A stretch of DNA of 64,000 nt from Ostrinia nubilalis (lineage: Eukaryota; Arthropoda; Insecta; Lepidoptera; Crambidae), in NCBI RefSeq assembly GCF_963855985.1, contig NC_087097.1, positions 7,101,001 through 7,165,000 of the forward strand, read 5' to 3'. The notes below the pieces were generated by a model. It was not told the DNA's origin. It made no database searches and worked only from the letters and a program-made list of their open reading frames with translations. Position numbers and translations under genes: made by a program. Of this stretch, positions 5,377 to 52,058 are shown piece after piece; position 1 is the stretch's first letter, and each line of letters opens with the position of its first letter.

Positions 5377-7941
5377 ATGCGTGGAGTTGGAGGAGTGTTG
5401 GCCGTGGCCGTCGCCACTCTACTTGTGTGCTGCAGCGCAAACCCTCACCAGGTACGCATTAAAACATTATGTTACGTGGCGAAGAAGTCATGTGGTCAAA
5501 CATGTGGCCTGAAAGGACACTTTTCACCGAGTCATGACTCGTTATATTGCCCTTTCAGGCTCCTAGCTGACGGCGTTGCATATACATGCAACGTCGATGT
5601 TCTTTTGGGCTCTTTTTTTAAGTTTCTTGTATTTGATATTAAATAAAAAGGCAAATACAGATAAGTAGCATTTAGAAAAACTTTCGACTAGAAATTGATT
5701 GTACATTTCTTGCGCAGGAAATAATTATACTCCCATTCGATTCGAAATAACGGTATGAAAACCGTCTAGCTTTATCAGACAACTGCCACTGCTAGATAAT
5801 TTTAAAATCCATTTCCTAATTCAAATGGGTCTACATTCCTAACAAAGGCGTTATATTGACAAAACCCAAATACTGCATTCGACGTGATTTAATTAATATA
5901 AATCTTTGTTGAAAATGTTACTTAAATCTTCCTTCATTTGATCTAAATTACTCGATGAAATTGACATTTGCGATAGAATATTAATTAAGTCTTGCCCAAT
6001 TTTAGTTACCAAAAGCTTTCGGCTCTCGGCGGCAGAAAACATAATGATAACTTAAGCCCCCAATCAAACAGATAATTCTTGAATTTGTTGTTTACTCTAA
6101 ATGCATAAATTTTCTGAAATGGCTCTATCTCTCATTACTCATCACTTGGTAGTTGAGAAATGGGAGGACTTTTATGTTAATATTAAACAAATAAAGCTAC
6201 TTGAATAATATACAATGCTCACAGCTCACGCTCAGTACGATTCCGACAACATTGCGTAGTCATTCATTACTTAGCTTTACCTTTTTGAGAATTTTTCAAT
6301 TATTCACGTTGCTGGTTTACTCAGATACTTGGTACAGTAATCTTTAATGCCATACGTACTCATATTAGCATTCATTGTGATTTCAAGGTTATAAATATAT
6401 TACCATCACAGGCTCATAATTGGTGAAAATATAAGAAGCACATTATCGAAATACATTCTCTACATCTTTGAGTCTTATATTTTCAGTTACATGTCAATCA
6501 AATCACATTACCTTCAACTGCCAGACATGGGTCTCTCTCGACCAACATCACAAATAGCTCTTTTATTACAGTGAATCGAAAGTTAATTTTATCCTTTTTC
6601 TTTCTGACTAGGACTCTGAAGGGAACGAAGGCGAACACACTGGGGAACGTTACGACACTGGTGGTAAGTTCCATTTTGTGATTTGAGGTGTTAATTGATA
6701 CTTTATAGTACCTATTTCTAGCACTTAAAGTATTTACAATGGGACTGTCATTAAGTTAGTAGATACATGGGGAATTTATCCTTTTAAGGCTCGAATTTAA
6801 AAATACCATGTCCATTTTCAATGCTTTAAGTGCAGAATAACATAAGAGCTCACGTTCTCAACTTCGTATTGTTATCACGGTTTGAATTCACCTTTTATTC
6901 GTAGCACATAATACCCTTTACACCGTTTTACTCTCTTTCAAACACTTTTAACTAACTGTGAAAACACATAAAATCATCTTACGTGAATGGTACTCTACAC
7001 ATCTTTTCTTAAACGAAGCACTTTTATAATTTTATCAAATATTATTTTATTAAATATCTTTCTAATAACACAAAATATATTATTGCACTTTTTGTCAAAC
7101 TACTGTACTATATCTCTATAAATATAGTGGTGGATGGGACTACGCACTTTTCCCAGAATGCATCTGCACAAAAACCTTATCTTTACTTTCCTAGTGCACC
7201 ATTTTCCCTTCACCGCCTTTCATCATTTTGTGGTAAGTACTTGTATTTGTACATCTGTATATATATTTTAAATCTAATTTCTATTAAATTAATAAGTACC
7301 TAATACCTAACCTTTATTTAAATATTTTTCTAGAGTTGAGACAGAATGAAGAATACGAAGATTTCCTGCGATTCCTAATTAATTATCAAAATAATCGCAA
7401 CCTTGATGGAATCGGTGGAAGCTCTCTTCTTGGAAGAAACCTGGGTGGCATTGGAGGCTCCTCACTTTTAGGAAGAAATATAGAATCCCAAAATAGCAAT
7501 CTTCACGGCATTGGTGGTTCAACCTTTCCTGGTAGAAATGTGAACGGCATCGGGGGCTCATCTCTTCTGGGCAGAAATCTTCATGGTGTTGGAGGTTCTA
7601 GTTTAGTTGGCAGGAACCTTGCTGGCATAGGAGGCTCTGCTTTATTGGGAAGAAATACCGAGGGTGACAAAAGGTACTCTAGATTTGTTGACTCTATCGG
7701 AGGAGGTAACTTCGTTCGCAACTTGGATTCTATTGGGGGTGGCAATTTTGTGAGGAATCTTGATTCAATCGGCGGCGGAAATTTTGTCAAGAAAAATCTG
7801 GATCACATCGGAGGACCCAACTTTGTAAAGAAGAACTTAGACTCTCTTGGAGGTGGAAACCTAGTGCGTAACCTGGACTCCATTGGCGGAGGCAACTTTG
7901 TCCGCGAACTGGATTCCATTGGAGGTGGAAATCTAGTCTAA
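5377..7941 (+). CDS. orcokinin prohormone 1, B isoform
   Basis: This is a secreted neuropeptide precursor. Exons are 5369-5451 (ATG at 5377; 25-residue hydrophobic signal peptide, phase 0), 6612-6663 (acidic linker, ends phase 1 at G|GTAAGT) and 7334-7941 (terminal exon, TAA). The total is about 244 codons. The first half of the terminal exon has six GIGGSSLLGRN-like repeats. The second half, after DKR, has seven peptides of the NLDSIGGGNFV type separated by R or KK, which is the orcokinin-B signature. A convertase would cut at R, KK or KR. The start is chosen by the signal peptide and by identity in position with the paralogue at 31752. A poly(A) signal follows near 8060. Splice sites are read by eye but phases agree throughout. 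Confidence 0.9.
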
Positions 7942-25600: not shown

Positions 25601-28600
25601 GCTAACTCAATTGACTAACTAATAAATGAATTTGAAAACCAAAAATATTTTAAATTTTTTACAGGAAATTGAAAACCAACTCTATTATACAGAGCTAGAT
25701 TTTATAAAGAAGTTGTTTCTCGGAATTATTTTATTGGTCAAGTGCCAATTTATCAAACAATGTACAGTCGCGGAATGAAAAGGTTCGTCACCTTAGTGTC
25801 GGTTTTCGTTTGCACTAGGTACTGTAAGAGTCAAACATAACCGTGCAAGAAACAGTGCTGCTAACATTTAAAAAAATATGACGTTTGCGAACGAATAAGG
25901 TTTTGCTTGTTTATTTTTCTATCCCATCAGTGCAATGTTACAAAATGTAGTTTTTTTTACAAGCTTTTATTTACTTTCACATGTCTGGTGTCTGTCGTCA
26001 AATCTTGCAACTTAAAATTGACCCACTTCCCGGTTTCCTATTGAGCTGGAATTTTGCATGCATGTGTAAGTCGGATGACAATGCAATATTATGATGACAC
26101 GGAGCTGATCTGATGATGGAGCTGGAAGGTAGCCATAGGAACTCCGCAATAAAACGACACAGGCCTATCGAGTTTGGGCTCGTTTAATTTGTATTGACGA
26201 GACCTTTAATCCTGTATGGTAACCATCAGGGTCTGATGATGGAACCGGAAGGTGTCCATAGGAAATACGCACTGAAACAACACAACCTCGTCGAGTTTGG
26301 GCTCGTTTAATTTATATTGACGAGTACTTCAATCCTACATGGTACCAGGGTCTGATGATGGAACCGGAAGGTAGTCATAGGAAATTTGCAATAAAACGAC
26401 ACAATGTCATCGAGTTTGGGCTCATTTGATTCGTATTGACGAGTACTTTAATCCTACATGGTAACCAGGGTCTGATGATGGAGCCGGAAGGTGGCCTTAT
26501 GAAATCCGTACTAAATCGACACAACCCCGTCGAGTTTGGGCTCGTTTTATTCGCATTGACGAGTACTTCAATCCTACATGGTAACCAGGGTCTGATGATG
26601 GAGCCGCAAGGTGGTCATAGGAACTTTGCAATAAAACGACACAATACCATCGAGTTTGGGCTCGTTTGATTCGTATTAATGAGGACTTCAATTTTATATG
26701 ATAACCAGGATCTGATGATAGAGCCGGCAGGTGGCTATAGGAATTCCACACTAAAACGACACCACCTTATAGAGTTTTCGCTCATTTGATTCGTATTGAT
26801 GAGCACTTCAATCACATAATATGATAACTAGGGTCTGATAATGAAGCTGAAAGGTGGTCACATGAACTTTGCAATAAAACGACACAATACCATCGAGTTT
26901 GGGCTCGTTTAATTTGTATTGACGATAACTTCATCCTATATAATACTAGGGTCTAATGATGGAGTTGGAATGTGGCCATAGGAACTCCGCAATAAAGCGA
27001 CACAACCCCGTAGACTTTGGGCTCATTTAATACGTCGCAAGTGTAACCCTATCAAATGGGAATAATGTTCGTTACATTTAGTATGAATGTAGTTTCATTT
27101 TGATTAGATGAATAACCCATTGAAAAGGTGCACGAGCTGAGAGCTGAATATTATGAGGGTGTATAAAAAATAATATGTCATAATCACTAACGCTGCGCCT
27201 TAACCAAAATGTTTCAATAAATTTCAACTTTTCAAACCCGCATTATAAATACTAAAAAGTCGAAAATAAAATAAAATAAAAAAATATTTTTCAAAAACAA
27301 GCTTTTAATGCTCTAAAAAGAATAAAATAAAATATAAATTATTTTAAACCCATCAACTTATTACTTTTCTCAATTTATATGATTAAAAGCTTGTCGCGAG
27401 ATTTACTTGTATAAAAAATACATTAAATACGTAACTTGATCTTGCTAAAACTTTGATCTGAGAAAAAAATCAAATAGTTAAATACATACATCTAGTAAAT
27501 CTCGCGACAAGCTTTTAATCATATAAATTGAGAAAAGTAATAAGTTGATGGGTTTAAAATAATTTATATTTTATTTTATTCTTTTTAGAGCATTAAAAGC
27601 TTGTTTTTGAAAAATATTTTTTTATTTTATTTTATTTTTATTTAATAGATAATGACAGGTTGAACCAACAAGAAGGTTTTAGTTTATCAATCATAATAAT
27701 CTTCTTGACAAGTTAAATCGTCAAACAACTTTGATCTAAATTTAATAATAATAATAATAAATCTTTGGACATTTTCACACAGCGCCAGCTAGCCCCAAAG
27801 TAAGCAACTTAATGCTTGTGTTATGGGTGCTAGCTTAACGGATATACTACTTATATACTTTTTTTTTTTTTAAATACATACATATTATACATAGTAACAT
27901 CCAGACCCGTCACAGAAATTAAAATTCATCATTTCAATTTCTGCCCGGCCGGGAATCGAACCCGGGACCTCTCGGCATAGTAGTCCGCTCTGAACCACTA
28001 CACCAAACGGCCGACAAATAAATAATTTTGAACTTTACTGACGAACAGTTAAAGATTATTTTCTCGAGATTCGAGATTATTCTGTAACATAGTTTCAAAA
28101 GGTAATATGTGCTCGCGATTCGTTGAAGGAATCAATTTGAAAACTGACGAACCTTTTCATTCCGTGACTGTACGTGCATTCGTTCCATATTCGCGATTGG
28201 TCTTGCCTGGATTCTAGAAAGTTCGAGGTTAATGCGTTAAGCGTCTACAAAAATGAGCAGAGCCCTGGAAAATCGTATTAAATTTACTAGCAAAACCTCA
28301 AATAGTGAATTCAGATTATGCTTCTTGGTCAAAAACGAATGAGATTTTCGTCTCAAAAGCTACCAATACTTATATTTGCGTGTTTCTTAGCTTTACCGCG
28401 TTGCCAACATATTACGTCTTAGGAAAATAAATGAATAAATAAATACATATAGCGCGCAACTGAGGCACTGCGAAAATCCTCTAGTTTATGAATTACCTAA
28501 TCGTTGTACTCATAATCAATTGGTATGATACACCACATATTAATTCGTACTTGAGAAACTGGCGTCTGACTTTTGTGTTTGCCAGTGCTACTGGAATAGA

Positions 28601-31600
28601 ACATGAATAAATAAACATTTAATACATTTAACGAACATTGAAACATTGTAATCAAGTGTATTCGACAGAACGAAAAAGAAATGACTCTGACTGCAAAAAA
28701 ATAAGGTTTATATTAAAGTGTAAATAAAATATTTAACAACCCTTACCTGTTATCAAATTTTCTTGTCATGAGATACGGTACAAATCCCGTGTCCCTTGCA
28801 GATCTGACCAAAGCGCCTCCAGGGTGATCCATACTCACAGCTTTATGACCTATTGGTATTACAACAGTAACAAGTATTATCACTATTCAAATAGATTTAA
28901 AAAAATCGAATAAAATACTTATAATTTATATCTTACCCGTTCATGATTACATCAATCAATATCCTTTCTTTAATTAACAAAATGAATAAATAGAAAGGGA
29001 TTAGTAATAAAACACCAGATATAGGAGTCAACACAGCTACTAATTTATTTTAAACTCACAACACCAATAGGAGGTAAACCACGATAAATTTAAATAAGAC
29101 CGTAGATTATCACATTTAATTCTGTTGTATTAAGAGAGAAGGTAATGTTAATTGTAAGTTATCGCAAACAACAACATCAAACTGTAATGATTAAACAAGG
29201 TTTCCACCTCCGATGGAATCTAGCTGTCGTATGTAGCGACTGAACACGGGGTCGAAACTCCTTACAAGATTGCCGCCTCCTAAAGAATCCAAAGTCTTCT
29301 TGACCAGGTTAGGTCCTCCAATATGATCCAGATTCTTCTTCACAAAATTCCCACCACCAATCGGATCAAGATTCCTGAGAAACTGTGTCGCTCCCGCTAA
29401 ATCCCTGTTAGGCACAAACTCTCCTCTCACCGAGCTAGACATAGCATCGTTATCTTCAGAATTACCGCCCATTGGCCCAAGTCGATCACCTGCCAGCCTG
29501 CCTATCAGAGATGATCCTCCAATACTATTGATAGCGCCAGTTCCATGGACATTTCTACGCTGGAATGTACTCTCACCGTACCTCGGATACCTTGACCCCC
29601 ATCCCCAAGCGCCAGGCCTACTCAATGCAATACCGATTCCTCTCCTTTTCATAGGTTTCTCAATATTATCAACAAACCCCGATTCTCCCAGGGTGTTTTG
29701 ATAGTTTTGTAGAAGACGTAAGAGATCATATTCCTCTTTTAACGGTCCTGAAACAACATCAGTTCTGATATAGGTGAGCTGTAAATAAGTAGCTTTTCTG
29801 AATAATTTAGACAAATTGATTACTCACCGGGTGTGATAAAAACGGATGCACAGTGCTTAGGAAGCTCGTGATATTCGTTGTGCAGGGTCAAACTCCAAGG
29901 AGGTGCATCAATATGCCACTACTAACAGAAGTTAGTGACAGTTATTCAAAAGCTAAGTGCAAATATTGTGAAATCGTTAACAAGTGTCGTGGTTATGGTG
30001 GGACGTGTGCGGGAAGAGGTGTATCGATTGAGTGTGGTCACGTGATGTTTTGATCGTGCAAGGAAGTGATTAAAAGGGTGTAATTATTTCATGTGCTTGT
30101 AGTATAATTACCACATTTTATATTTCAAAATATTTATGAGAACTTAAAAGCTAATTGTGCTAGGAAAGTCAAATTTCGATCAAACAATTATTTACATTAC
30201 AGTGTGTATCAATCAAGATTAAAAGTGATATGTGATAACAGCATAACCGTCGTTATACAAGAATGTAGATGAATATAAGGATGTCATAAACTTGAAATAG
30301 TGTGGTGTTATGTGCAAAGAGTCGACAAAGTAGTCACGTGCTCGTTGCAAGTGAAGGAAGAATTCTGACAGGTTGTAAAAATTTTGAAAGTGCGTCACAC
30401 GTGTGTGAGGACTCACCGGCGTCGTAATGTTCCCCGGGGCTCTCCCCGGCGCTCATGTCAGATTCCTGGCAAAGAAGGATGAATTATTAACACACTTTCT
30501 ACCACCTTGACGTGTGGGAACGACATTGAATGCAGCTGTACGGTATTACTTCTTTTTTCCATTACTGTGAATCGATTTCAATTAGTCTTATTTTCTAATT
30601 TTACTCAATTACTGCAATAAATTATGTTTAATATTTAGACAAAACGTCTGAAAGTAAATTGGATGTACATCTTTTAACCATTTCATTATGCCCAATTTCC
30701 CGAACCAAGGCTATGGAAATTTGAGGATTACTTTCAAATCTCCTCGAAATACTCAAATTTGTGTTCAAATAACGTTCCAATATAAACTAGAATGGCAAAC
30801 TCAATATAAAGAAGTGTAATACCTACGACACCGTGTATAAACGAAATATTGTAGACCTTGGCCTTTCCGCGATTACCACATTATTGTATCAATAATAGAT
30901 CTACTACACTTATTATCTGGATCTAAATTTACTTTTCCCCAGACTCCTCAAAATATCGTGAAATGTGAGGGAAATAAAAATAATGTCAGTGGTTTTATCA
31001 GTGACACGTGCGATATTGGTTTGGTTGAATAAACAAGCCGTCAGTTATCGTTACGGAGCACTACGAAGACGTGCCATCGCTACGACATGCTACGGTTTGC
31101 TACGAAACTACGACTACGCGTCTACAGTTTTGTTTCTGACGGGTAGAAGTGAAATAATAAATTACTTCATAAGTACATGTATGGTTACGACATTATTATT
31201 TTAAAAAAAATTAACCGTGTGAGAAAGAACGTACCTATTTTGTATCAAGTAATTTCATTATGTAAATTGTCAAATTAATAAACATTCTTCTGTAATTATA
31301 AGTTCAGTCTAAATTAAATTGTTTGGATCCCAATCTCATTACGCTTCTTTACATTGTACGTACATACAATGTAAATATCATTTATCAGGTAAATGACGAC
31401 TCGAGGCAAAATTAATTTAGTACATAGTTAATAGGAAATCCTGAGATGTTATGTTATAATGAGATGTCTACTTTCATTTAGGAACTCGATCAACCATTAA
31501 CAGTAACCATTCTTTATATTTGCATGCCATAGTCTATGACTAAATAGGTCTTAAGTAACATTATATCAAATAAGAACTACTCTGTAACCACCCATTGAAG

Positions 31601-36778: not shown

Positions 36779-38344
36779 ATAATTTTACCGCGTTAGAACA
36801 ATGAAGTCCCTGGACAGCAGTAGGTATTAGGCGCATTTAAACGAAAATCAACAATAATATTGAGCACAAACCAAAACACGGCCACATGATAGGTAAATAG
36901 GTGTTGACTTTATTCAAACATTAAAAATATTATTCTTGCCACCGCTTCATTGGAGGGTCGATAGATAGCGTTCTTTGTATTCACAATTTCACATTTTCAT
37001 AAAAGCGAACGGTATACTAACACAGGTAAAAGATACTTTTCCTGTGTAGTGGGAAAATGGAAAACAGCCTTAAGTTGATTCGTTAACCTTTCGTCTCACT
37101 TATCCGAACAAAACGATCCCTTTAGTTCGGGAAGCGTGAGCTGTATACTGAACAGTCTTTTAAATAAAACTTAGGTTACGTCAAGGCGAGTTGAACAGTA
37201 AAAGGAATATAATAGTTCGTTGGTCCTTTCGTCATTATGTCGTTAAACGCCTTCACGCAAATACTTATCCCAGTAATTATGAAATGAATTAGAAGGAGAT
37301 AATAAGGATAAGCATCTAGATATATAGAGAATGGAATAAAATTGTATTATACTTACTTAGGTACGTAAATGGTTATCAAATACAAATTATTATAGAGACT
37401 ATTAGCGAGAGCTCTCGCTACTAATGATTTGACTTGACAACTCTACCACTGTCACAACAAAACTTTAGGCTTTAATAACATATTCATAAGAACTCTCAAG
37501 ACTCTTGATAAAGTGACAGATAGTTATTAATTAAATTATCTAATAAATCTATTTAACAATACATTCCTGCAATTACCGGTACCTACCCTAACGGTAGGAT
37601 CTGCCAGATATCTCTATCTGAGACCTAAGAAACCAAAAGCTGAAAGTTTATAAGCGAATAATCATTATAGGCTATCAGCGACTTTATCAGGAAGTTGTTA
37701 AATATGATTATGGATTATAGTCTGAATTATTTTTTTCCATTTTTACCACCCAAACACCATATGAAGTGATCAATGCCCGTCCCACTCCATAGCAGCTATG
37801 TCTGATTTAATAAGCAAATAATATATTGTTGGTGAGACATTAATTACAGACTCACAATTTTATTTTATTTGCAACCAATAATTTTCATCTGAAGCCAATA
37901 TTAACATTGTCGGTAGCCCTAATTGGAAATATGAAGAGGGTTTAGCAGCGACCGTATCGTTCGTGCTCACACGAAGAAAATTTTTTCCGCCAATCCACAG
38001 GCTAGCTAGAGCAGAAATAGAGCAGTCCTTGTAACATTATGGGTTAAGTAATGCTTAGGATTTAGATAATTTCCTAAATTGTGAGTTTTGGGCTTAGGTA
38101 CTTATAGAATTTGTATGAATATTAATTTCAAAAGTGACAAAAAGAAAATACGAATTAATATCATTATTAACAAGAATTACTATTAATAAGTATTAAGTAA
38201 AGAACAAGACGAACTGTAAACGTGCTTGGCCAGACTGCACACGAGTCAAACTTATTTAAGAAAGAGTGTGTGAGCTTTGAGTGTACTAGTTATTATTTAA
38301 ACAACTCTTATTTTCAGATGATAGGCTCAGAAAATTAAAAACTT

Positions 38345-38465
38345 CGGGGTTAATAACGGGACTAAGTACTCCCATCTCTCGTTCCCACCACCGCTTTTTC
38401 TATGAAACTAGGAATCAGGATCTACAACTTGATCGCTAACAAATACTCAACCAGTGAAAGCCCAG
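38345..38465. repeat. dispersed repeat, unclassified (copy B)
   Basis: It matches 21590-21715 in order: TTAATAACGGGACTA, CCCATCTCTCGTTCCCACCA, GGATCTA and ACTCAACCAGTGAAAG. Confidence 0.5.
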
Positions 38466-39205
38466 TTTGTCCTTGTAAAGGTTACTGTTATTCAAGGAAT
38501 CGAATGTCTTCAATGGATTAGCAAAGGATTGATTGAGGTCGACAAAACTTAATAGCCTTGCTTGACCATGACCATAGGTAGGACTATAGAAATGGAACGT
38601 AATTATTTCCCTATTTTAAAAGTTACATTTGTTTACAAAAGTACTATTGTATTGCACTTACCAAAATGGAGAATGAATTTATTAACGAGGAAATTTTATT
38701 AAGCCTACTCTATCATGAAATCAATGTTTAGAATTCGGTCAGTTTGATTTCTAAACGGACATGTTGACTGTTGGCATTTAGGACTATCCAACCAAATGCA
38801 AAAGAACGTCATCCCACTAACACAAGTTTTTCTATCTCTTTCTAGCTTTAATATGATACGTAACTACTAGCGCCACTTAAAAAAGTAAAGCTGAAAGCAA
38901 AACTAAATTAAATTAGGGTGGTTAATAGCAAATGGCATCGGCCATGGGAACGATTTGACAGTTCGAATAAATGCTGAGCAGGGAATACGAAAGAAAGAAA
39001 CTATTTTTAACGTTTGCTTCGACCAACTAATAACTTACTTATGATAATCAATAAATAGTAATTCTATAGTGTTATAATTAAAATGTAATCGTATCAATTA
39101 TTATTATAATTTCAAAACAAAGTCTATCAGATGTTTCGAGGTTGCAAAGTGTCTGTGTTCAATGTTATCATTATTTGTGTTGTTTTATCAGTGAAGTAAA
39201 TAGAT

Positions 39206-42200
39206 ATGATGAACAACATGACAGACAGCAAAGCTTTAACCATGGGGCCAGCAAATGGTCTTATGGATAAATCCAAGGAACTCCAGAAGGAAATTCTTAT
39301 GGAGAAACTAAGATCTAAAACTTCACAATACAAAAATTTGTCGGAGACTTCAAAAGCAGTTCGAATGGCATTACTGGTATGCGAAAACTATTTCTTCATA
39401 ATTACACAGTTAATTTAATACTGTTCAATTGACAATATTTTGTGAATTACTCTTTAGGACAAGCGCTGGGCTGTGGACAGTCAAGACCGCATGATTCTTC
39501 AAAAGTGCTTGGACAGTCTTCAGCACTGCATCAAGATTAGCTCTCTTCAAAGCCTCATTGAGAGACTCGAGTGTCTGTCGCGACAACTTGGGTTAGTAAA
39601 CTCTATATTCAAATTTTGTCTAAATGTAGTCATAGTCATAAATGTTTATTGCATCATGTTGGTACATTTGGATCTTAAATACAGAGTCCCGAATCATGTA
39701 AGTGTATTGCAGCAATTAAAAATAATATTTACTGTATATTTGTTAAAATATCCACATTTACATACTTCTACATGCATGTACCTGTGAATTCAGCTAAAAA
39801 TAGGTCTTTTTTCACAAATAACTGTATAAAAAAAATATTACAGGCTTAAGTTTGTTGTTGGGACCTCCGGTGTTAATCTATTCATATCATCCGATATGTT
39901 TTACCTTGAGATACTTGTGGAATCATCTGGCTCAATCAAAGATGTCAAGATTCATCATGAAGGAAAGGTATGCTATATTTTACCTCTGTTGATTCAAGTG
40001 TTGTTTATTCATTTAATTAAACTATGTATCAAGTAGGTACTTATTGATTTATTTTTTGTCTTTTAGATTGAACAACAAAGTTGTGAAGAATTGGTTTCCT
40101 GTATATCTCGGGGTGACTTTGCTGATTTTACTGCTCAATTAGAAGGTCTAACAGCTGTCTACCAGTTAAATGCTGAGAAAAAGGTAAGTTTATATTAATA
40201 TATTTGAATGTAAATACAATACAAAAACAATGTTTTTTATTCTATACTCACAATTAAATAACTATGTATAAACAATATTTATAGGTGAAATGCAAAGCAT
40301 TCAGTGCCCTGCAGAGCTTGGAAGAAGATCTTTGCACCTTAAGGCAGCTGCAAAGCTTCATCAAAGATCCATGGGCACAGGTTCATAAGAGCCCCATTGG
40401 GTTCCTCCAAAAACGAAGGGGAGGTAATGTATAGAACATTCTTTAAATTATTTTTGTTTATAATACCACATTACGCTTGTTTATTGGAATAATAAGACTT
40501 ACTTATTATGTCATGTACATTTTAATACAGGTCACGCCATGCGACTCACATACTTCGTATCACCTTATGAACTTCTGGATAAAGACAAAGGCCTTCAACC
40601 ACTCACAGTAGAACTCTTAACACTGGGCAAACCTCAAGCTTCGAGTGGTCTCGCTTCTTTGGTGGCTCCAACTCACACTCCCATTGGGCATTCAGCTACA
40701 GTCCTGTTGGAGGGCTCTACCGCTAACAAGCTGCAGTTGCAGTCAATCATATCTGGTGGCGGCCAAAGGCCAGGAAAAGGGTAAGTTAGAAATACAGAGT
40801 TTGTTTGAATTATGTAAAGAATTTTTTATTTTTTTTTCATATTTAATTATTTTTATCAGCTGCACGCGGTTTCAAAATTGGCACACGTGGATAATTTACT
40901 TCGTTCATAGAAAAATACGTACATACTGTATACTGCAAAGCTTAATAGACATGCGCGAATTAGAATACCATGAATTAGATTTTCAATGATTTTTTTTTTC
41001 GCGAAAACTACCATAATTAAAAATAATTTAGTTGGTTAAATTGTTCTTTAGTGCTTATTAAAAAAATTGGATACTGATTGCAAAATCACCCTGTATAGTG
41101 CACTTAAAACTTTTTATCTTGCTAAAAGATAGCATTTTTCAGTGTTTAATTTCTTTGTGCTTTAGGAACGGCCCGGTATACGCACCGCTGGTGCCTCAAA
41201 ACAGTGCGATGTTGCCAGCATGTTTCACTCTGAAGCTGTCCCAACCTACACCTATGTGCTCTGGGCTAGCAAAACTCATACATGCTACAACTGAGGTAAT
41301 TATATGAATAAAAATGATTTTAGAGAAACTATAGTTAGATGATGCTTATTTTCTGCACTTAGACTTTTGATTAGGTTATCGAATAGAGAAAATGTAACAT
41401 AATATGTAACTATTCTTAGTATAATTTGTCTATATTTTACTGTAGTCTTGTTTAATGTTCAGTTCATCTTCCCAGGTGGAGGTGGCTGGTGACTGGGCGA
41501 ATGCGAAGCCATTGCTAGGCCTCGTGGCCCAGCAAGCCTACAACAAGCTCGCACCAGGCAAGATTGTAGAGCTGAATCTAAGCAAAGGATTGTTTGTAGT
41601 AAGTATAAACATACTTGACTGTTACTCATTTCATTTCTTCTTATTTTCCCTAGCCCTTTTTCCCATTATTTGGGGTCGGCTGATCGGCTCTCTTTGTTCT
41701 GAGGCGCCAGGACAGTCTATGGGCAGTTGAAATATTTGTCTGGGCACGCTCCAAGTCCTTGGCCACCATAGACCGTCAGGTGGCCAGTAGGCGTCCTCTA
41801 CATTTACACATTATATTTGAATCTTCTAATTAGTTTAGTGAAGTTTTGCTTGTTATTCATGGTTTATTCCACTTTTTTCACCTGGGTGAAATGGTTTTGA
41901 GGTGAAATGAAGACACTAAAAATCTACTTTGGTTCACCCAAGTAAACAAAGTGGAATAAACCATTATTCGTCTATCCTTTTTTTAATTTCTTAAAAAATA
42001 TCAAGTAGATATTGACAAAAAAAATTAAAATTTCCTATTATAGAACCTACCCGAGCAGACTCAGTGCTACTTCTTGTGCGAGACTCGCGGGCTCGAAGGC
42101 TGCGTGGTGACCAGCGTCCCGTTCACTCACCCGTCGCACGTGCCGCCGCTGCTGGCCTGTCTCCGGCAACAGGCGCTCTTCAACGCGCTGGTGGCAAGCT

Positions 42201-45200
42201 GCGTGCGTTTGCAGACCAAGCAAGGTACGATAAAGGAACTAGTCTTTAATACTTAGTCAAAGCATAAACTCTCAAATCTGCAACCTGTCTCATAACACTA
42301 CCTAGTGTCTTTATTTTTGAACCGATAAGCAGGCAGATTATGTTGATATGGTTCGTTAGCTGTGCCTGTGTACTGTTTTGTGACAATCTGCATGAACAGA
42401 GCAGATTCAACTCAATTACGATAAGAACAAAGCTTATTAAAACAATGAAATAACTTGAACCCTGATTTTCCTAATATTAATAGAGCTGAGGGTGTGCTTT
42501 GATTTAGGTATGTTTATTTAGCTAACCATTTAATGTATTCGGACCAACAACAGCAACAGTACAAGTTTAGGTACAAAGTAACATTTTTTCTTTAAAAAGT
42601 TTACTTAATTTTTTATGCAATTTTGTTTTGATCTGATGTTTCTTTTTCAGTTTTGGACCTCGAAAGCGTGCTGATGTTCGAAGTCAGCGCCCTCTCGTGG
42701 CAGCACATCTCCATCTCACTGGAGCACCCGTTGGACGAGAGCATGGCGACCGTAGAACTGGAGCTGTCCGACCCGGCCGCGCCCCGGGCCTCGGTCTACA
42801 CTCTCAACTCGCCGCCGAGAGAACATATAGATGATTATATCAGCCGAGTGCTGCAGAAGAGCCACTCGATACCCATCACTTTGAGGTGAGTGACAGTGAC
42901 GTGACGTCAGCACATCTACTTCACTAGAGCACCCTTTGAACTGGAGCTGTCCGACCCGGCGGCGCCCCGGGCCTCGGTCTACACTCTCAACTCGCCGCCG
43001 AGAGAACATATAGATGATTATATCAGCCGAGTGCTGCAGAAGAGCCACTCGATACCCATCACTTTGAGGTGAGTGACAGTGACGTGACGTCAGCACATCT
43101 ACTTCACTAGAGCACCCTTTGGACTGGAGCTGTCCGACCCGGCGGCGCCCCGGGCCTCGGTCTACACTCTCAACTCGCCGCCGAGAGAACATATAGATGA
43201 TTATATCAGCCGAGTGCTGCAGAAGAGCCACTCTATACCCATCACTTTGAGGTGAGTGACAGTGACGTGACGTCAGCACATCTACTTCACTAGAGCACCC
43301 TTTGGACTGGAGCTGTCTGACCCGGCCGCGCCCCGGGCCTCGGTCTACACTCTCAACTCGCCGCCGAGAGAACATATAGATGATTATATCAGCCGAGTGC
43401 TGCAGAAGAGCCACTCGATACCCATCACTTTGAGGTGAGTGACAGTGACGTGACGTCAGCACATCTCTTCCACTAGAGCACCCTTTGAACTAGAGCTGTC
43501 GGACCCGGCCGCGCCCCGGGCCTCGGTCTACACTCTCAACTCGCCACCGAGAGAACATATAGATGATTATATCAGCCGAGTGCTGCAGAAGAGCCACTCG
43601 ATACCCATCACTTTGAGGTGAGTGACCGTGACGTCAGCACATCTGTATCTCACTCGAGCACCCTTTGAACTGGAGCTGTCCGACCCGGCCGCGCCCCGGG
43701 CTTCGGTCTACACTCTCAACTCGCCGCCGAGAGAACATATAGATAATTATATCAGCCGAGTGCTCCAGAAGAGGCACTCGATACCCATCATTTTGAGGTG
43801 AGTGACCGTGACGTCAGCACATCTCTATCTCACTAGAGCATCCTTTGAACTGGAGCTGTCCGACCCGGCGGCGCCCGGGGCCTCGGTCTACACTCTCAAC
43901 TCACCACCCAGGGAACACATCGATGACAACATCAGTCGAGTGCTGCAGAAGAGCCACTCGATACCCATCACTTTGAGGTAAGTGACAGTGACGTGACGTC
44001 AGCACATCTTTACTAGAGCACCCTTTGGACTGGAGCTGTCTGACCCGGCGGCGCCCCGGGCCTCGGTCTACACTCTCAACTCGCCACCGAGAGAACATAT
44101 AGATGATTATATCAGCCGAGTGCTGCAGAAGAGCCACTCGATACCCATCACTTTGAGGTGAGTGACCGTGACGTCAGCACATCTACTTCACTAGAGCACC
44201 CTTTGGACTGGAGCTGTCTGACCCGGCGGCGCCCCGGGCCTCGGTCTACACTCTCAACTCGCCACCGAGAGAACATATAGATGATTATATCAGCCGAGTG
44301 CTGCAGAAGAGCCACTCGATACCCATCACTTTGAGGTGAGTGACCGTGACGTCAGCACATCTCTATCTCACTCGAGCACCCTTTGAACTGGAGCTGTCCG
44401 ACCCGGCGGCGCCCCGTGTCTCGGTCTACTCTAGGCCCTATTTCATACATTTGAAGATGTTTATCTCTTAAAAAAACGTCATTGCATGATTATAAAACTT
44501 TTCAACCTGTGCACGGAATGACTTCTAACTAATGTTAGACCCCTAAGAGTTTCCTACTTACCATAGTGGCCGTGGTCGTCACACCTGGTTTGGTAGCAAG
44601 CTTCACAATCCGTCGCCATTCCTTCCGCATTGCAGCCTTTCTTGTGCACTCGTGGAATGGACCATTGAGTTGGGTTTTGACCTGATCAGTCTAGTACATG
44701 GGCGATCTGCCACGCGCTCTTGTACCCTCAACCTTCCTCTGCACGTTTCCTACACTGCCTTATGGTTAGTCCGGCCTGGGTTCCCCTGTAGCCCAGGGAC
44801 CCTATATGACCCTTGGTGACTCCCGTGTAGTACGAATGAAGTTAAACTATGATCCGTCTTTGTTTATCAGGTCGCTAGTGAAAATCTGGGAGCGCGAAGC
44901 AGCCACGAAGCAGATGAACGGCGGCTACTCGGCCCTGGAGTCGAATTTTAGCTGCGGCCTGGGGGGCATGGATCCCGGGGGCGAGCACGTGAAGCACGAG
45001 CCCGGGACCATGCACGGCCGAGCTCTCTACCCCTCCAGCGTCAGCCACCCGCACCAGGGCGGTGAGTACCAGCTAGTTGGCATTAGGGTTTACCATAGAG
45101 ATATAGAGACACTGACATAGCCCGACGGATTAGCAAGCTAAAGTGGCAATGGGCTGGTAAAGGTAGCAGGAAGGCGCTGGATGCAGGCCGCTACCAACCG

Positions 45201-48200
45201 TGCGAAGTGAAAGTCTTATGTTCAGCAGTGGACGTCCTGTGGCTGAAATGATGATAGAGAGATGCCAACTAATGTTCTGAGTTCGAAACTCAGTGTCGCA
45301 TTAGAAATTCACACACACAATCAAATCAAAATATGTGCTAATTATCCACTGTATCAGTACTCAACATTTGAATAATCTTTAGTACTACGCAAGCAATGTA
45401 AGCTGTTTACATTATGACGTCGCTGCTGTCAGCATTGCTTTCACGAGCAATGTGTTCTGTTTTTGGGCATATTGCTGCAACACCGGCCCCGCCCCCATGT
45501 CACATTTCCCTTTAGTTTCTGTGATCTGTGGGTTTTACTTAGGCTTCACCCGCGTGAATTTTATAGCCTACTAGCTGTGCCCGCGACTTCGTCCGCGTGG
45601 AATAATGACTTTGGGTAGGCACTTTTAATAATTTAGTCTAATTTTATTTTACAAAGGCCTATGTTCAGCAGTGGACGTCCTATGGATGAAATGATGATGA
45701 TGATGATTTTACAAATAGTTTTTGCCCGCGACTTCGTCCGTGTAGAAGTCGAAAAAGTTCTCATAGGATTTTTAAATGGTTTTTAACGTTATTATCTAAA
45801 TGTTTGAATACTATTTGATCGTTTAAACACAGTGAATGATTCAATTACATAAAATTTTAAATATTATGAACAATATAGTAAATGTAATATTTAATTACTA
45901 AATTATGACTAATGATACGTTTCACGGCTTCGCTCTCATGAATGTTAACGACCGTCAAAAGCACGTCGATAGATGGCGGTCACTAATTTAGACTTTGATT
46001 TGCTCGTTTAAACACAGTGAATTATAAAATTACATAAAATATCTTTATTGATTAAATTTTAAATATTATGAACAGTTCTATAAATGTAATATTTAGTTCC
46101 TAATTAGGACTAATGATACGTTTCACGGCTTCGCCACAGCTTCGCACTCATGAATGTTTACGACCGTCAAAAGCACGTCGATAGATGGCGTTTTTAACGA
46201 AATTTCTCACCACTTAACTATTTATTGAAATTTATTTTGTCACATATCGTCATAAATTGTAGCCTATATGTTAGCCTGGGTTATAAACAATAATACTGAA
46301 AAGTTTCAACAAAATCCGTTTATTAGTTTTTGCGTGAAAGAGGAACAAACATCCAGACATCCAGACAAAAAGGTTACAGTGAGCCAACCATAAAAGATAG
46401 ACATATGCTGTTGCGGACTTTTTTGTAGAACTTTTAAAGGGGAAAATCCTATCATACATAATTTATGCGAAACTTTAACCGTTTACGCAGCGTCAGCTCT
46501 CAAAAGGAAAAAAATCACTGATTTGAAACATTCTTCATTGGTGCTCCGCTCCTAGTGGTCTTAGCGTGATGATATATAGCCTAAAGCCTTCAGGGATTAA
46601 CGGACTATCCAACACAAAAAGAATTTTTCAAATTGGTCCAGTAGTTCCTGAGATTAGCGCGTTCAACCAAATAAACAAACTGTGATTAATAAATTGCGCC
46701 ACTACAAACCGTACCAACAGATGGCGCTGTTACGATCTTACTATGGAAAACTCCACCGCGCATACAATCCTGCATCGCGGTGACGAAGTTTTTTACCCTG
46801 CCCAGTATATATACACAAACCAAAATTATGCAGATTAGATGCACTAACACCTTAGCTTCCTTATGGTGGTTGAGCGTCACATTCCACAATTTCAGCTTTA
46901 TAATATTAGTATAGAATAGTATAGATTAAAACCCGTTCAGTAGTTTTTGCTTAAGGGCCTTTACTAAAATATGCGCGAGCACTTAGATTTAGTGTTCGCT
47001 CCGGACATGTGGCGCGGGAAGGCGCTTCGCGCTGGTTTAACCGGCAACTAAATAAATAAGCGCAACCGGCCCGGTTGTGCCCTGCTTTTTAGTTGTATAC
47101 GGGCCGCGGTAGCTTAGCGTAGACCCTAAAAGGTCGAATAACAAACATCCATCGATTCTCACAAACTCTCATTTATATCATTAAGATAGAAGCTTCAAGT
47201 TTATGTCCGAAGATGGTATTTCGATGTCCGAGTATGTACTGGTCTTAAAAAAATATATAAAACCCTGTATCTTTACAGGCGCATACCTGTCTGAACAGCA
47301 ACACCACCTCTCAATGATATGCCAAGACCCCAACGCGGGGGACAGCAAGTCCCAGGTGTCTGAAGAACGAAAATCTAAAAAGAGGAAGTCCGACATAGAT
47401 CCTTGGTCGGCGAACCAAAAAAAGGGCAAACCCGGCCTCAGCGAAATGCCAGACTCGGAAAGCGACATGGAAAACTCCGATGGATACGTCAACGAGGACG
47501 ATAACACCATGAATAGTAACTCGACCAACGACGACATTGAAGGCAGGGAGTCGTCGGTTTCCCAAAACGAGTTCGCGTCAGATCTGGAACTGTCGGGCAT
47601 GGACGCGGACGCCCTGGGCGGACCAGACAACAGGACCTCCTCCGATATGGACAACTCTAATGATGGCGACGTGGAAGATATTATCAGGTTCGTGACTACT
47701 ATCTTATTTCCTTACTTTTACATGCAAAATACTGTTCGTTTCTTCGTTCGTTTCAGCCGAAAGACGTCCACTGCTGGACAAAGGCCTCCCCCAAGGATTT
47801 CCACAAAGACCGGTCCTGCGCCGCTTGCATCCAGGTACCTCCCGCGACCTTCACCAGATCGTCGGTCCACCTAGTGGGAGGCCTGACCACGCTACGTCTT
47901 CCAGCTCGTGGTCGCCACTCAAGAACTTTCCTGCCCCAGCGGCCATCAGCTCTTCGAGCTATGTGCCCCGCCCACTGCCACTTGATTTTAGCGATTCAGC
48001 AAAATACTGTACCTACAAGAAACTCACCGAATTGTGTTTTGTTCCAGGAATTCTTTTCAGAAGTCTGATCACAAAAGGCAAAAGCTGAAAAGCAAAGACT
48101 CGGAAGCGAGAAGTAATAGAAGCACATCTTCTCTGCTCCTCGACTTGACTGAAGGTAAATCGTACATGCCGTCGTCGGTGAGCATCACGCCCATAGGGAC

Positions 48201-50655
48201 CAACGCAGCGAATACTGCGCGCTCCGAATCCGGGTCCAGTATCAGCTCCATGCTCTGCCTTGACCGTCGCCCGGGAATCGAGATCATACCCATCACCGCA
48301 GCAGCACCCGCAACCCTACCCAGCTCCATAACAATAACACCCATAACGTCGTCTCAACTCAAATCGCTCGACGAACGCCATCGCTCCGAAAAGAAATCCA
48401 GCAAATCAGGCGAAGAACGGAGCAAGGAAAAGAAAAAGAAGCGACGCCGAGACGACTCCATGGGGCCACCAGAAAAAGTACCACCGAAGCAAGACCCGCT
48501 GACAAAACCCGTGTCTGTCAGCATCAAACCCACGGACGGTTCACCGATGCGTTCGACGTCCCCGAATTCGCTGCTGAGAAAATTTAGTCCGAGTCCCACC
48601 CATGGTAGGTCTGTCTCCATCACAAAATCTCCGAGTCCCAGCACGGTTAAAGGTATGGGAAAACCGTCTGGCACGTCTAGTCATCACAGTAGCCCCCGAC
48701 ACTCGCCGGTACAAAACAGCCCAAAACACTTGCCAGGGTATTCGAGCCCAAAAAACCATAGTATCTCTTCCCCTAAACACAGTTCTTCGGGGTCGGGAAA
48801 ACCGAGCATGTCAGCTTTAAAATCTGCCACCAGTGGTTCGCCGTCCGGCAAATCCGGTACCACAGGTTATGATTTATCAAAAAAGATGTCAAAAGACAGC
48901 TACGGATCGAGCTCCGTGTCCTCCAGGGACAAGGAGAAAAAACATTCCAGTTTGTCTTTTTCCAGTTCCGATAGAAGTAGTCCGAAGTTAAAAAACCCGG
49001 TAAAATTAAAACAACTCGAAATAACCCCAGTGTCGTGCGACAGCCCCGTCACTGAACCGCTAATATCCCCACCAAACGTCGAAGTAAACAAATCTAATGC
49101 TCCGAGTCAAGCTCGGAATAGGAAGGGCTCTCTCAGCGCTGTGATAGATAAATTGAAATCTGCTCAACATTGCGGCACCGACACTGAACTAAGCGGTACC
49201 AAATCTAGTAGCTCGTCCAGTAGTACTAACAAATTCTCAGACCCTAAAAACAGTACAGCTAGTAGTAGTTCCAAAATGAGTGAAAGCAAAAATCAAGAAT
49301 ATATGGTCAAACCCAGTCTAGACGGTATGAAAATCACCATTAATAAAACAAGAACAAAAGAATCTTCTAGTAGTAGTTCAAAATTGAACTACAGCAGTTC
49401 AAGTTCAAGTAAACAATCTTCCCCGCAACTAACTCCCCCGAGCCAGGGCTCGCCTAAGACGCACACAGGCCTGAAGCCTGGCGTCATTAGCGGCCCGGCG
49501 TCAAAGAAAACACAAGTCCTCCAGTCATCAAAATCCAGTAGCGTGACTCCAGGATCTACACCACCGAAAGCTAATATGAGTCCCTCAGAATCGTCAAGTT
49601 CTGGTAATAGCAGTCTACCCAAAGTGCCTTATTCTAAATCTTCTAGTACCAGTAGCGCTGGTATTAATTTGTCCAAATCGGCATCCAAATCTAGCTCCGG
49701 TTCACCCAAAAGTAGTAGTATGGACATTGCCAAAATAATAAGAGACAGGGAACGAGAAAAAGCCAGAACCAAACTCACCAGTAATTCAGAAAAATCTATA
49801 TTCGCTTCAAAGTCTGAGAGGCACTCGAGCCCCAGTGGCTCGAGGGATGACGTTGACGGAGACAGGTATAAATCTAAAGAAGCCAACTTTCTAGTCGAGG
49901 GTCTGATCAAGCCTCTCGATACCAGCAAATTCCAAATACCGAAACTTAAAAATCAAAGCACTCCGGACAAAAACAGCCCGGTATCACAGTACGACAGTCG
50001 GTCTTTGGTGAACGATTTTGCTAGAGGATTAGATCAGAGCAAATATTCTTTTTCTCATTTCGACAACTCGAATTCGAGGCCTTCCGACCTACAAAAATCC
50101 GCCTATCCACTAAACGTACCGAAACCCTTACTGAACATGGGTGGAATGAGTCCGAAAACCGTTCAGCCTAACAAGGTGGACCAATCCGATCGGCCTATAG
50201 AATATTCTAAGGCCATCGACAGCTTAAAGGGCGAGAGCCCCCAGCGCAGCAAAGACGACGCGAAGGAAGGCTACTCGGTGTCTTATCCAATGGTGCCTTT
50301 AGATTTTAAAACTGACATGGCGAAGGGGTTTCCCGCTCCGAAAGGTAGTTCAGAGGACAGGAAAGGGGCAGACGCGTGCATGAAGCCTCCGGCGAGCGGG
50401 TCGGTGCCGCGCAGTGGCGCGACCACTCCTCAGGAGGCGGCAGAGATGCTGTTAGATTTTTCGTCATCGTCGGGGAGTAAAGTGTCGGGGATGGTGGCGG
50501 TGCGGCCGGTGTACCCCGCGTCGCCGGCGCTGGCGCTGCAGCTGGCCAAGAGCCCGGCGCCGTCGCCGCTGGTGGCGCCGTCGCCGCACTCCAACTCGCC
50601 CGGCATCACCGACGACGAGCTCATGGACGAAGCGCTAGTCGGGCCCGGCAAGTGA
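39206..50655 (+). CDS. MED1: Mediator complex subunit 1 (MED1)
   Basis: This is a nuclear transcription co-activator subunit. Coding exons are 39206-39376, 39458-39591, 39844-39967, 40067-40183, 40285-40423, 40531-40780, 41166-41295, 41476-41598, 42044-42224, 42651-42885, 44871-45061, 47279-47687 and 48048-50655. All phases agree, giving ~1603 residues. The conserved N-terminal MED1 fold spans about residues 50-530 (for example [38 protein letters not shown]). A linker with VKHEP and acidic stretches follows, then a long Ser/Lys/Pro-rich disordered tail (residues ~735-1603) with a KEKKKKRRR basic cluster and [11 protein letters not shown] near the end. I saw no LXXLL motif. Introns 10-12 carry an exon-repeat array and transposon debris. 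The stop overlaps a donor-like GGCAA|GTGAGT, so a further exon cannot be excluded. Confidence 0.9.
41858..41972. mobile_element. small MITE in MED1 intron 8
   Basis: ATGGTTTATTCCACTTTTTT...GGGTGAA is answered by TTCACCCAAGTAAACAAAGT...GGAATAAACCAT. Flanking TATTC on both sides may be the target duplication. It is ~105 bp and non-coding. Confidence 0.6.
42700..44437 (+). repeat. MED1 exon-10 tandem array (partial exon plus splice donor)
   Basis: The 3' part of MED1 exon 10 with its donor recurs eight more times in the following intron, plus a final partial unit. The donor-adjacent G of TTGAG|GT lies at 42883, 43066, 43249, 43432, 43615, 43795, 43975, 44155 and 44333, so the period is 183 bp, then 180, then 178. 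The first complete copy (42928-43068) is 141 bases, lies between TAG and AG|GTGAGT, and is open in the MED1 frame. Copies lack a short segment (encoding ESMATVE) present in the true exon. Eight donors are GTGAGT and one is GTAAGT. Units are almost identical. Confidence 0.92.
44440..44870. other. MED1 intron 10, distal part with unassigned repeat-like DNA
   Basis: This GC-richer stretch between the array and exon 11 reads on the minus strand as possible LINE-type protein debris ([14 protein letters not shown]). No clear element boundary is visible. Confidence 0.3.
45118..45262 (+). mobile_element. RTE-type LINE 3' fragment in MED1 intron 11
   Basis: [15 protein letters not shown] frame, then GTAGCAGGAAGGCGCTGGAT, GCAGTGGACGTCCTGTGGCT and a short GATGAT end. 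A second, shorter copy of the 3' end lies at 45656-45707 with a longer GATGATGATGAT tail. Confidence 0.65.
45570..46920. mobile_element. cluster of Helitron-like fragments
   Basis: CTAGCTGTGCCCGCGACTTC (45572-45592) and TTTGCCCGCGACTTCGTCCG (45720-45740) are reversed Helitron-end sequences. Two ~200 bp blocks at 45830-46000 and 46010-46195 (each with AATGATACGTTTCACGGCTT and CAAAAGCACGTCGATAGATG) form an internal direct repeat. The right side ends TATAATATTAGTATAGAATA near 46915. The boundaries are mixed. Confidence 0.5.
47752..48005 (-). mobile_element. RTE-type LINE 3' end in MED1 intron 12
   Basis: Read on the minus strand it encodes the C-terminal tail of the LINE protein ([14 protein letters not shown], then the WRPRAGRRS and [11 protein letters not shown] region) and ends at the GACGTCCACTGCTGGACAAA block. 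Almost the whole 360 bp intron 12 is this element. Confidence 0.7.
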
Positions 50656-50683
50656 GTTGGAGTGTCACGCGCGCCCGACTCCC

Positions 50684-51358
50684 CTATACACCACTAAATT
50701 TTTATCACCGAAAAATTTTTAACAGGTTATGTAGAAACGTGTGGAATATTGAAAGAAAAAGAAATGGTTTTCATTAAGTTAATTTTTTAATTAAATTTTC
50801 GTTAGTCCGTATTTTACGCGTCACAGCTTTGTCACTCCGCTGCTCGCTAGAGTAGTCGTACAAGCTCGCACGTTGCATCGTTCTGACTGTCTCGCTCACG
50901 CCTCGACCACGCTTCCAGTGTTATTATTACATACTTAGCTAACTTAAACCATTTTGAATTCTAATAAGTGTTACATTATCGTACTTAAATAGTGCTAGCG
51001 ACGCGTGTGTCCTTAAATTACCAATTTTAGGAGGAAATTTTGAGTCGCTTTATTATTTTTTTTTTTTTTTTTTTTTTTTTTATGCATAACAAGGCAGGTA
51101 TTTGACCACAATCGCACCTGATGTTAAGTGGGATGCAGTCTAGGATGGTACATATCTGCCCTGTAAGTGCTTATTCACTCTCGCCTTGAAGAGGCCCGGA
51201 TTATAGTTTTCGGGAAAGACAGCAGCAGGCAACGAATTCCAGTCCCTAGCTGTTCGCATTATAAAAGTGTCACTTCTTTTTTTGCACAAATGGGATCAGT
51301 ATCAATAACTCATTACCCAGATATTTTTTTTCGGTGATAAAAATTTAGTGGTGTATAG
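50684..51358. mobile_element. TIR element just after the MED1 stop, with nested repeat
   Basis: CTATACACCACTAAATTTTT (continuing through ATCACCGAAAAA, 32 bp, 50684-50715) returns as an exact reverse complement at 51327-51358. A T-tract and a dispersed lepidopteran-style repeat (AAGGCAGGTATTTGACCACA through GCATTATAAAAGTGTCACTT, 51051-51285) lie inside. No transposase frame was seen. It occupies the MED1 3' flank or 3'UTR, 29 bases past the stop. Confidence 0.7.
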
Positions 51359-52058
51359 AAGGCAGTTCAATTCGCTATCGGACTGTTAACCCGCATATAA
51401 ATAAAAAAGGCCAATCATTCAAGAGTACCTACCTAGAATTTAAAATAATGATAAACACTTGTGTATCGTGTGATGTATACTGAAGCCGGTAACTGATTAA
51501 ACTACATTCTATGCAGAAAGTACAAGCGACCGGCCTTATGAATGACATACGTATTGTTACATTCTATGGTTATTATTGTCTGTAACGAAGTATATTTAAC
51601 TGATTTATATAATAATGTTATTTATGAATCTATATTTATTTGTGTCTGATGAATATTCATCGTTTTCTCAGTAGGTGTTATTTAAATTATGTGTTTTAAT
51701 TTTTAAGACCACAAATATTAAACCAAGATATTTTGTGATTAACCTATAATCTGTATATGTTAGTATTTGTATAAATAATATCGTGTCATACAATCATTAT
51801 ACGAGAAGGCCCAGAAAACTAAACATGAAGCCCTTCATATAATCTTATTCAAGAACCACTTCTGACTAAACAACTGCCATGAATACAATTTAGTGTACAA
51901 CATTATGTCCTAATTTTATTTTAGTTACGTAGCCAATAGTGAACAAGAATAATTTTTCAATAATAATTGTAAATATAATTATATGAATTGGTAATATATG
52001 ATATTGAAATTATTACATCGGTAAGGGATTATGCTTTAGTTGAAAAGATTTTTTCAGA

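Follow-up and report, generated by a model that had tools for sequence, protein, structure and literature searches.

A tandem array of copies of a MED1 exon end in the following intron of Ostrinia nubilalis, probably an inert exon-born minisatellite

The MED1 locus and its surroundings

The window analyzed here is a 64,000-nt stretch of the O. nubilalis genome (NC_087097.1, positions 7,101,001 to 7,165,000, forward strand), and all positions are counted from its first nucleotide. Three consecutive plus-strand exons (Table 1) give one open reading frame when joined, and the joined product matches the Med1 family in Pfam (PF10744, E 1.8e-10) as well as human MED1 among the solved structures (E 1.3e-19), where query residues 4-140 align with residues 372-513 of the human chain. 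On the basis of these two similarities, the host gene is assigned as MED1 (Mediator subunit 1), as proposed in a preliminary description of this DNA, from which the exon numbers 10 and 11 are taken. The 77-aa product of exon 10 matches no Pfam family by itself and is 86-91% identical to its relatives P0001-P0004 and P0007.

Several other features were recorded in the vicinity and elsewhere in the window. The long open frame that extends over 47992-50655 presumably forms the end of MED1; it has no Pfam match. Between exon 11 and this frame, an 80-codon open stretch on the minus strand (47753-47995), likewise without a Pfam match, looks like the terminal part of a retrotransposon protein. Just beyond the long frame lies a perfect 32-nt inverted repeat (arms 50684-50715 and 51327-51358, 611 nt apart), possibly marking the ends of a small transposon. 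A second tandem array is found at 26109-27035 (period 120 or 240, 7.7 copies, 79-82% matches). Two open stretches in opposite orientation and about 21 kb apart, 7288-7941 (plus strand) and 29191-29823 (minus strand), contain repeats such as LDSIGGGNLV and LDSIGGGNFV and show no Pfam match; presumably, they resemble orcokinin-B neuropeptide precursors.

Organization of the array

The intron between exons 10 and 11 (42886-44870) opens with a tandem array, which was detected by TRF at 42755-44429 (period 183, 9.2 copies, 92% matches, score 2812). The exon itself constitutes its first copy, after which come eight complete units and then a truncated one. Successive ends are spaced by 183 nt four times, then by 180 nt three times and finally by 178 nt, so that the approximate 183-bp repetition of the exon end with its donor, reported in the preliminary description, is present throughout with a slightly shortened period in the later copies. 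The arrangement is that of an intronic minisatellite, with head-to-tail units of tens to hundreds of base pairs located inside an intron.

Table 1. Positions of the MED1 exons and of the components of the intronic array in the window
Feature	Position	Strand	Basis or remark
MED1 exon	42044-42224	+	in-frame join to 42651-42885
MED1 exon 10, probable source of the array	42651-42885	+	frame join, homology
Spacer 1	42886-42927	+	42 nt; exon's own donor GTGAGT; TAG at end
Unit 1	42928-43068	+	141 nt; TAG before, GT after
Unit 2	43111-43251	+	141 nt; TAG before, GT after
Unit 3	43294-43434	+	141 nt; TAG before, GT after
Unit 4	43477-43617	+	141 nt; TAG before, GT after
Unit 5	43657-43797	+	141 nt; TCG in place of TAG, GT after
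Unit 6	43837-43977	+	141 nt; TAG before, GTAAGT after
12-codon patch in unit 6	43901-43936	+	nine private changes, eight synonymous
Unit 7	44017-44157	+	141 nt; TAG before, GT after
Unit 8	44195-44335	+	141 nt; TAG before, GT after; identical to unit 7 over 126 nt
Last spacer and truncated copy 9	44336-44429	+	TCG; no donor
MED1 exon 11	44871-45061	+	in-frame join 42885/44871

All eight complete units have the same length when measured from the acceptor-like triplet to the donor, and each of them, if placed singly between the neighboring exons, leaves the frame open. A GT dinucleotide follows all nine ends, those of the exon and of the complete units, within GTGAGT in eight cases. The TAG triplet precedes seven of the nine copies, where CTGGAG of the exon is replaced by CTAGAG; the other two carry CTCGAG. 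The combination of TAG, open frame and GT is thus found in 7 of the 8 complete copies. These observations bear out the unit length, phase and splice-site counts given previously. The reported 42-nt gap between neighboring units, however, applies only to the first four gaps, since three others measure 39 nt and one measures 37 nt. Relative to the exon, the units lack 22 nt near their start, and in the spacer the upstream piece of the exon (CAGCACATCT...CACT.GAGCACCC) is fused behind intron sequence.

On the minus strand, the end of the exon and the first units (42716-43489) are open for 257 codons from stop to stop. Since 183 nt correspond to 61 codons, a single stop-free antisense unit keeps the whole stretch open, and a search with 200 antisense residues against the 7993 candidate proteins sharing most words revealed no relative at E <= 1. 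An antisense gene was therefore rejected in favor of a by-product of the repeat.

Differences among the units

The units are nearly identical to the exon, though to an uneven degree. Within the 126 nt that the exon and all complete units have in common, which exclude the first codons of each unit, the numbers of positions deviating from the exon are 1, 2, 1, 3, 5, 12, 3, and 3 for units 1-8, respectively. Units 1-3 differ at 1-3 sites, and private changes occur in four units only (2, 4, 5, and 6).

In neutral copies, some 25-30% of the changes should be synonymous, and random mutation with transition weights from 1 to 4 would be expected to yield 26-30% over the 126 nt. With each distinct change counted once, the observed number in this stretch is 16 synonymous changes out of 21 (p 2e-6 to 2e-5), where this and the following p values on unit changes are to be read in the light of the non-independence of related units and of tests picked after looking at the data. 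Counting whole units adds two amino-acid changes in the first codons, one in unit 6 and one in units 2, 3, 7, and 8 (16/23 synonymous; p 1e-5 to 1e-4). As the patch in unit 6 possibly represents one exchange event, counts made outside of it are fairer: these gave 8/12 synonymous changes over 126 nt (p 0.003-0.01) and 8/14 over whole units (p 0.01-0.03), or 9/14 (p 0.003-0.009) and 9/16 (p 0.008-0.03), respectively, after addition of truncated copy 9.

This excess is not predicted for a satellite that evolves in a purely neutral manner; it could result either from exchange with the constrained exon or from translation of the units. Copying of variants from the exon, by gene conversion or unequal exchange, is the favored explanation because homogenization among copies is evident and because three of the four variants common to several units are synonymous (GCG, TCT, and CCA, as opposed to GAA/GGA), as expected if many of them came from an exon under constraint, while the private changes located within the 126 nt but outside the patch are synonymous in only 5/9 cases (p 0.05-0.1). 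Unit 5, with two synonymous and three amino-acid changing differences, accounts for three of the five amino-acid changes within the 126 nt and looks neutral.

Outside the patch, the TAG units show 6/7 synonymous changes over 126 nt (p 0.002-0.004) and 6/9 over whole units (p 0.01-0.03), vs. 2/5 in the TCG unit. This contrast was sought after the fact and provides no evidence: over 126 nt, Fisher tests returned p 0.22 when the patch was left out and 0.063 when it was counted; the corresponding values were 0.27 and 0.045 after inclusion of truncated copy 9, and 0.58 and 0.14 for whole units (0.16 with both patch and copy 9).

The patch in unit 6

The nine changes in the patch are clustered (p about 7e-4). 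In its counterpart in the exon (42809-42844), seven successive codons end in A or T (AGA GAA CAT ATA GAT GAT TAT), although G or C is the last base in 82% of the codons of the surrounding 202-codon stretch (permutation p 5.5e-4 for the A/T run). Unit 6 reads AGG GAA CAC ATC GAT GAC AAC at the same place, and its patch encodes the residues of the exon except for an N in place of Y. At this position, Y is present in 11 of the 12 relatives aligned to the exon, P0014 being divergent there (P0005 and P0006 were excluded, as they do not cover the exon). The patch occurs once in the window when up to 3 mismatches are allowed, and none of 16 pattern-matching stretches in viral contigs encodes a relative of the exon. 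Unit 6 may thus either preserve an earlier form of the exon or have taken up the patch from a diverged coding copy. If the patch were a simple relic, amino-acid changes should have accumulated in it as well, so that a constrained source appears likelier.

Splice-site prospects of the units

In a Bombyx cDNA survey, introns have a minimum length of 34 nt and a median of 730 nt (PMC3755909). By this measure, splicing across the gaps between adjacent units is improbable, as had been proposed, though all of these gaps exceed the Bombyx minimum. A jump over one unit, the route foreseen in the preliminary description, would require an intron of 217-225 nt, which is a plausible size.

Upstream of the eight unit starts, pyrimidines make up a fraction of 0.65-0.71. 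This value falls inside the range spanned by the three true acceptors (0.59, 0.76, and 0.71) and speaks for the use of the units as optional exons. However, a CAG located 14-19 nt upstream of TAG or TCG in all eight units would compete with these triplets, and its use gives an out-of-frame unit. A strict YTNAY branch site is absent 10-59 nt upstream of all seven TAG sites; by the same rule, it is absent at the authentic acceptor of exon 11. GTGAC, found 20-34 nt upstream of TAG, is a possible weak branch site. Judged from their sequence, the units would be possible but mediocre exons with doubtful acceptor strength, and their use in splicing is unsupported. RNA structure as a means of selecting among the units was rejected, since the two stretches that were folded, unit 1 with its spacer and the surroundings of the exon donor, behave as expected (z 0.04 and -0.50, respectively).

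Origin of the array

Taken together, the array most probably represents an inert intronic minisatellite that was born from the end of a MED1 exon and is skipped by normal splicing, a reading to which we assign a probability of about three in four. In this scenario, the minisatellite would have been born by a partial tandem duplication comprising the exon end, the donor and some 22 nt of the intron. An early 22-nt deletion together with the base change in CTGGAG would then have produced the present unit shape, and unequal exchange would have multiplied it. Both the fused spacer and the 22-nt gap are what would remain after a partial duplication and a subsequent deletion. Continued exchange with the living exon has probably kept the copies similar to it and supplied them with its synonymous variants, while the spliceosome most likely joins 42885 to 44871 and discards the array.

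The frame-preserving nature of eight units appears at first to argue for a coding role. Without the deletion, however, the unit would measure 163 nt (141 + 22), a multiple of three plus one, and its start would be one nucleotide out of phase; the 22-nt loss corrects this. The deletion and the new TAG position would thereby have set the phase of all units in a single early event with a chance of about 1 in 3, and the match does not amount to eight independent coincidences. As the openness of the units is largely inherited from the frame of the exon itself, the argument from eight frame-preserving units is weakened further. The constant unit length counts against pure inertness, since at least three length changes occurred and these lie in the short spacers. 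The preliminary description hence holds for the anatomy of the locus, and the plain alternative that it offered, an exon-born intronic satellite, is favored over its optional-exon proposal.

Alternative explanations

According to that proposal, splicing jumps at least one unit and adds 47-residue blocks to MED1, their number being set by the length of the array. The intact phase, the TAG and GT sites, the intron size of a one-unit jump and the synonymous excess are all compatible with it. Besides the competing CAG and the lack of a strict branch site, the added block would repeat the end of the region that can be aligned to human MED1, making a disturbance of the fold probable, and the optional-exon reading is considered unlikely. 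Its stronger form, in which the units are true coding exons kept by selection, unit 6 carries an old coding patch, the TAG-less unit is decaying and the satellite sets a 47-residue repeat, is slightly less likely still.

An equally doubtful explanation regards the array as a series of decoys, in which nine near-identical donors compete for U1 and thereby alter the efficiency of intron removal or yield a short MED1 ending in ...PITLR. A precedent for a splicing effect is the intronic VNTR6-1 of human TERT, which is reported to act as a splicing switch linked to a G-quadruplex rather than to donors (PMC11830802). All nine ends do carry GT, and retention of the unspliced array places a stop directly after PITLR; the donors, on the other hand, may be intact simply because the copies are young or have been refreshed. 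If decoys were at work, the length of the array would tune the dose of MED1.

Least probable of all is an assembly artefact that created or inflated the copy number. Misassembly of tandem arrays is common, and units 7 and 8 do not differ over the 126 nt, where only half of the units have private changes. These four units do carry such changes, however, spacer lengths differ, and a repeat search of 38000-52000 found no repeat family in the stretches flanking the array.

Comparison with known systems and implications

In classical tandem exon duplication, the entire exon is copied together with its native acceptor and donor, whereas the MED1 array copies only the exon end and the donor. Furthermore, its sole in-phase acceptor was created when a base changed within what had been exon sequence, and nine copies at a spacing of about 183 bp look satellite-like. 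What is shared with tandem exon duplication is the presence of exon-similar sequence in the same gene outside of annotated exons, which is what a survey of such duplications looks for, unannotated copies included (PMC9013439). Like the TERT repeat (PMC11830802), the MED1 units lie in tandem inside an intron and possibly affect splicing; unlike it, they are coding in origin, carry a donor and are known from one sequence. Many similar tandem units in one gene are also a feature of the Dscam exon clusters (PMC3236188), which are whole, mutually exclusive alternative exons, whereas the MED1 units are candidate exons separated by gaps of 37-42 nt. Among the matches listed in a literature search covering few subscription journals, no MED1 intron array or satellite of an exon end with its donor was found.

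If the units were translated, a conserved regulator of transcription would obtain optional protein blocks from a satellite, and new exons would arise from the end of an exon itself. Even if inert, the locus may present an exon and its intronic copies exchanging sequence, so that earlier forms of the coding exon could be preserved in the copies.
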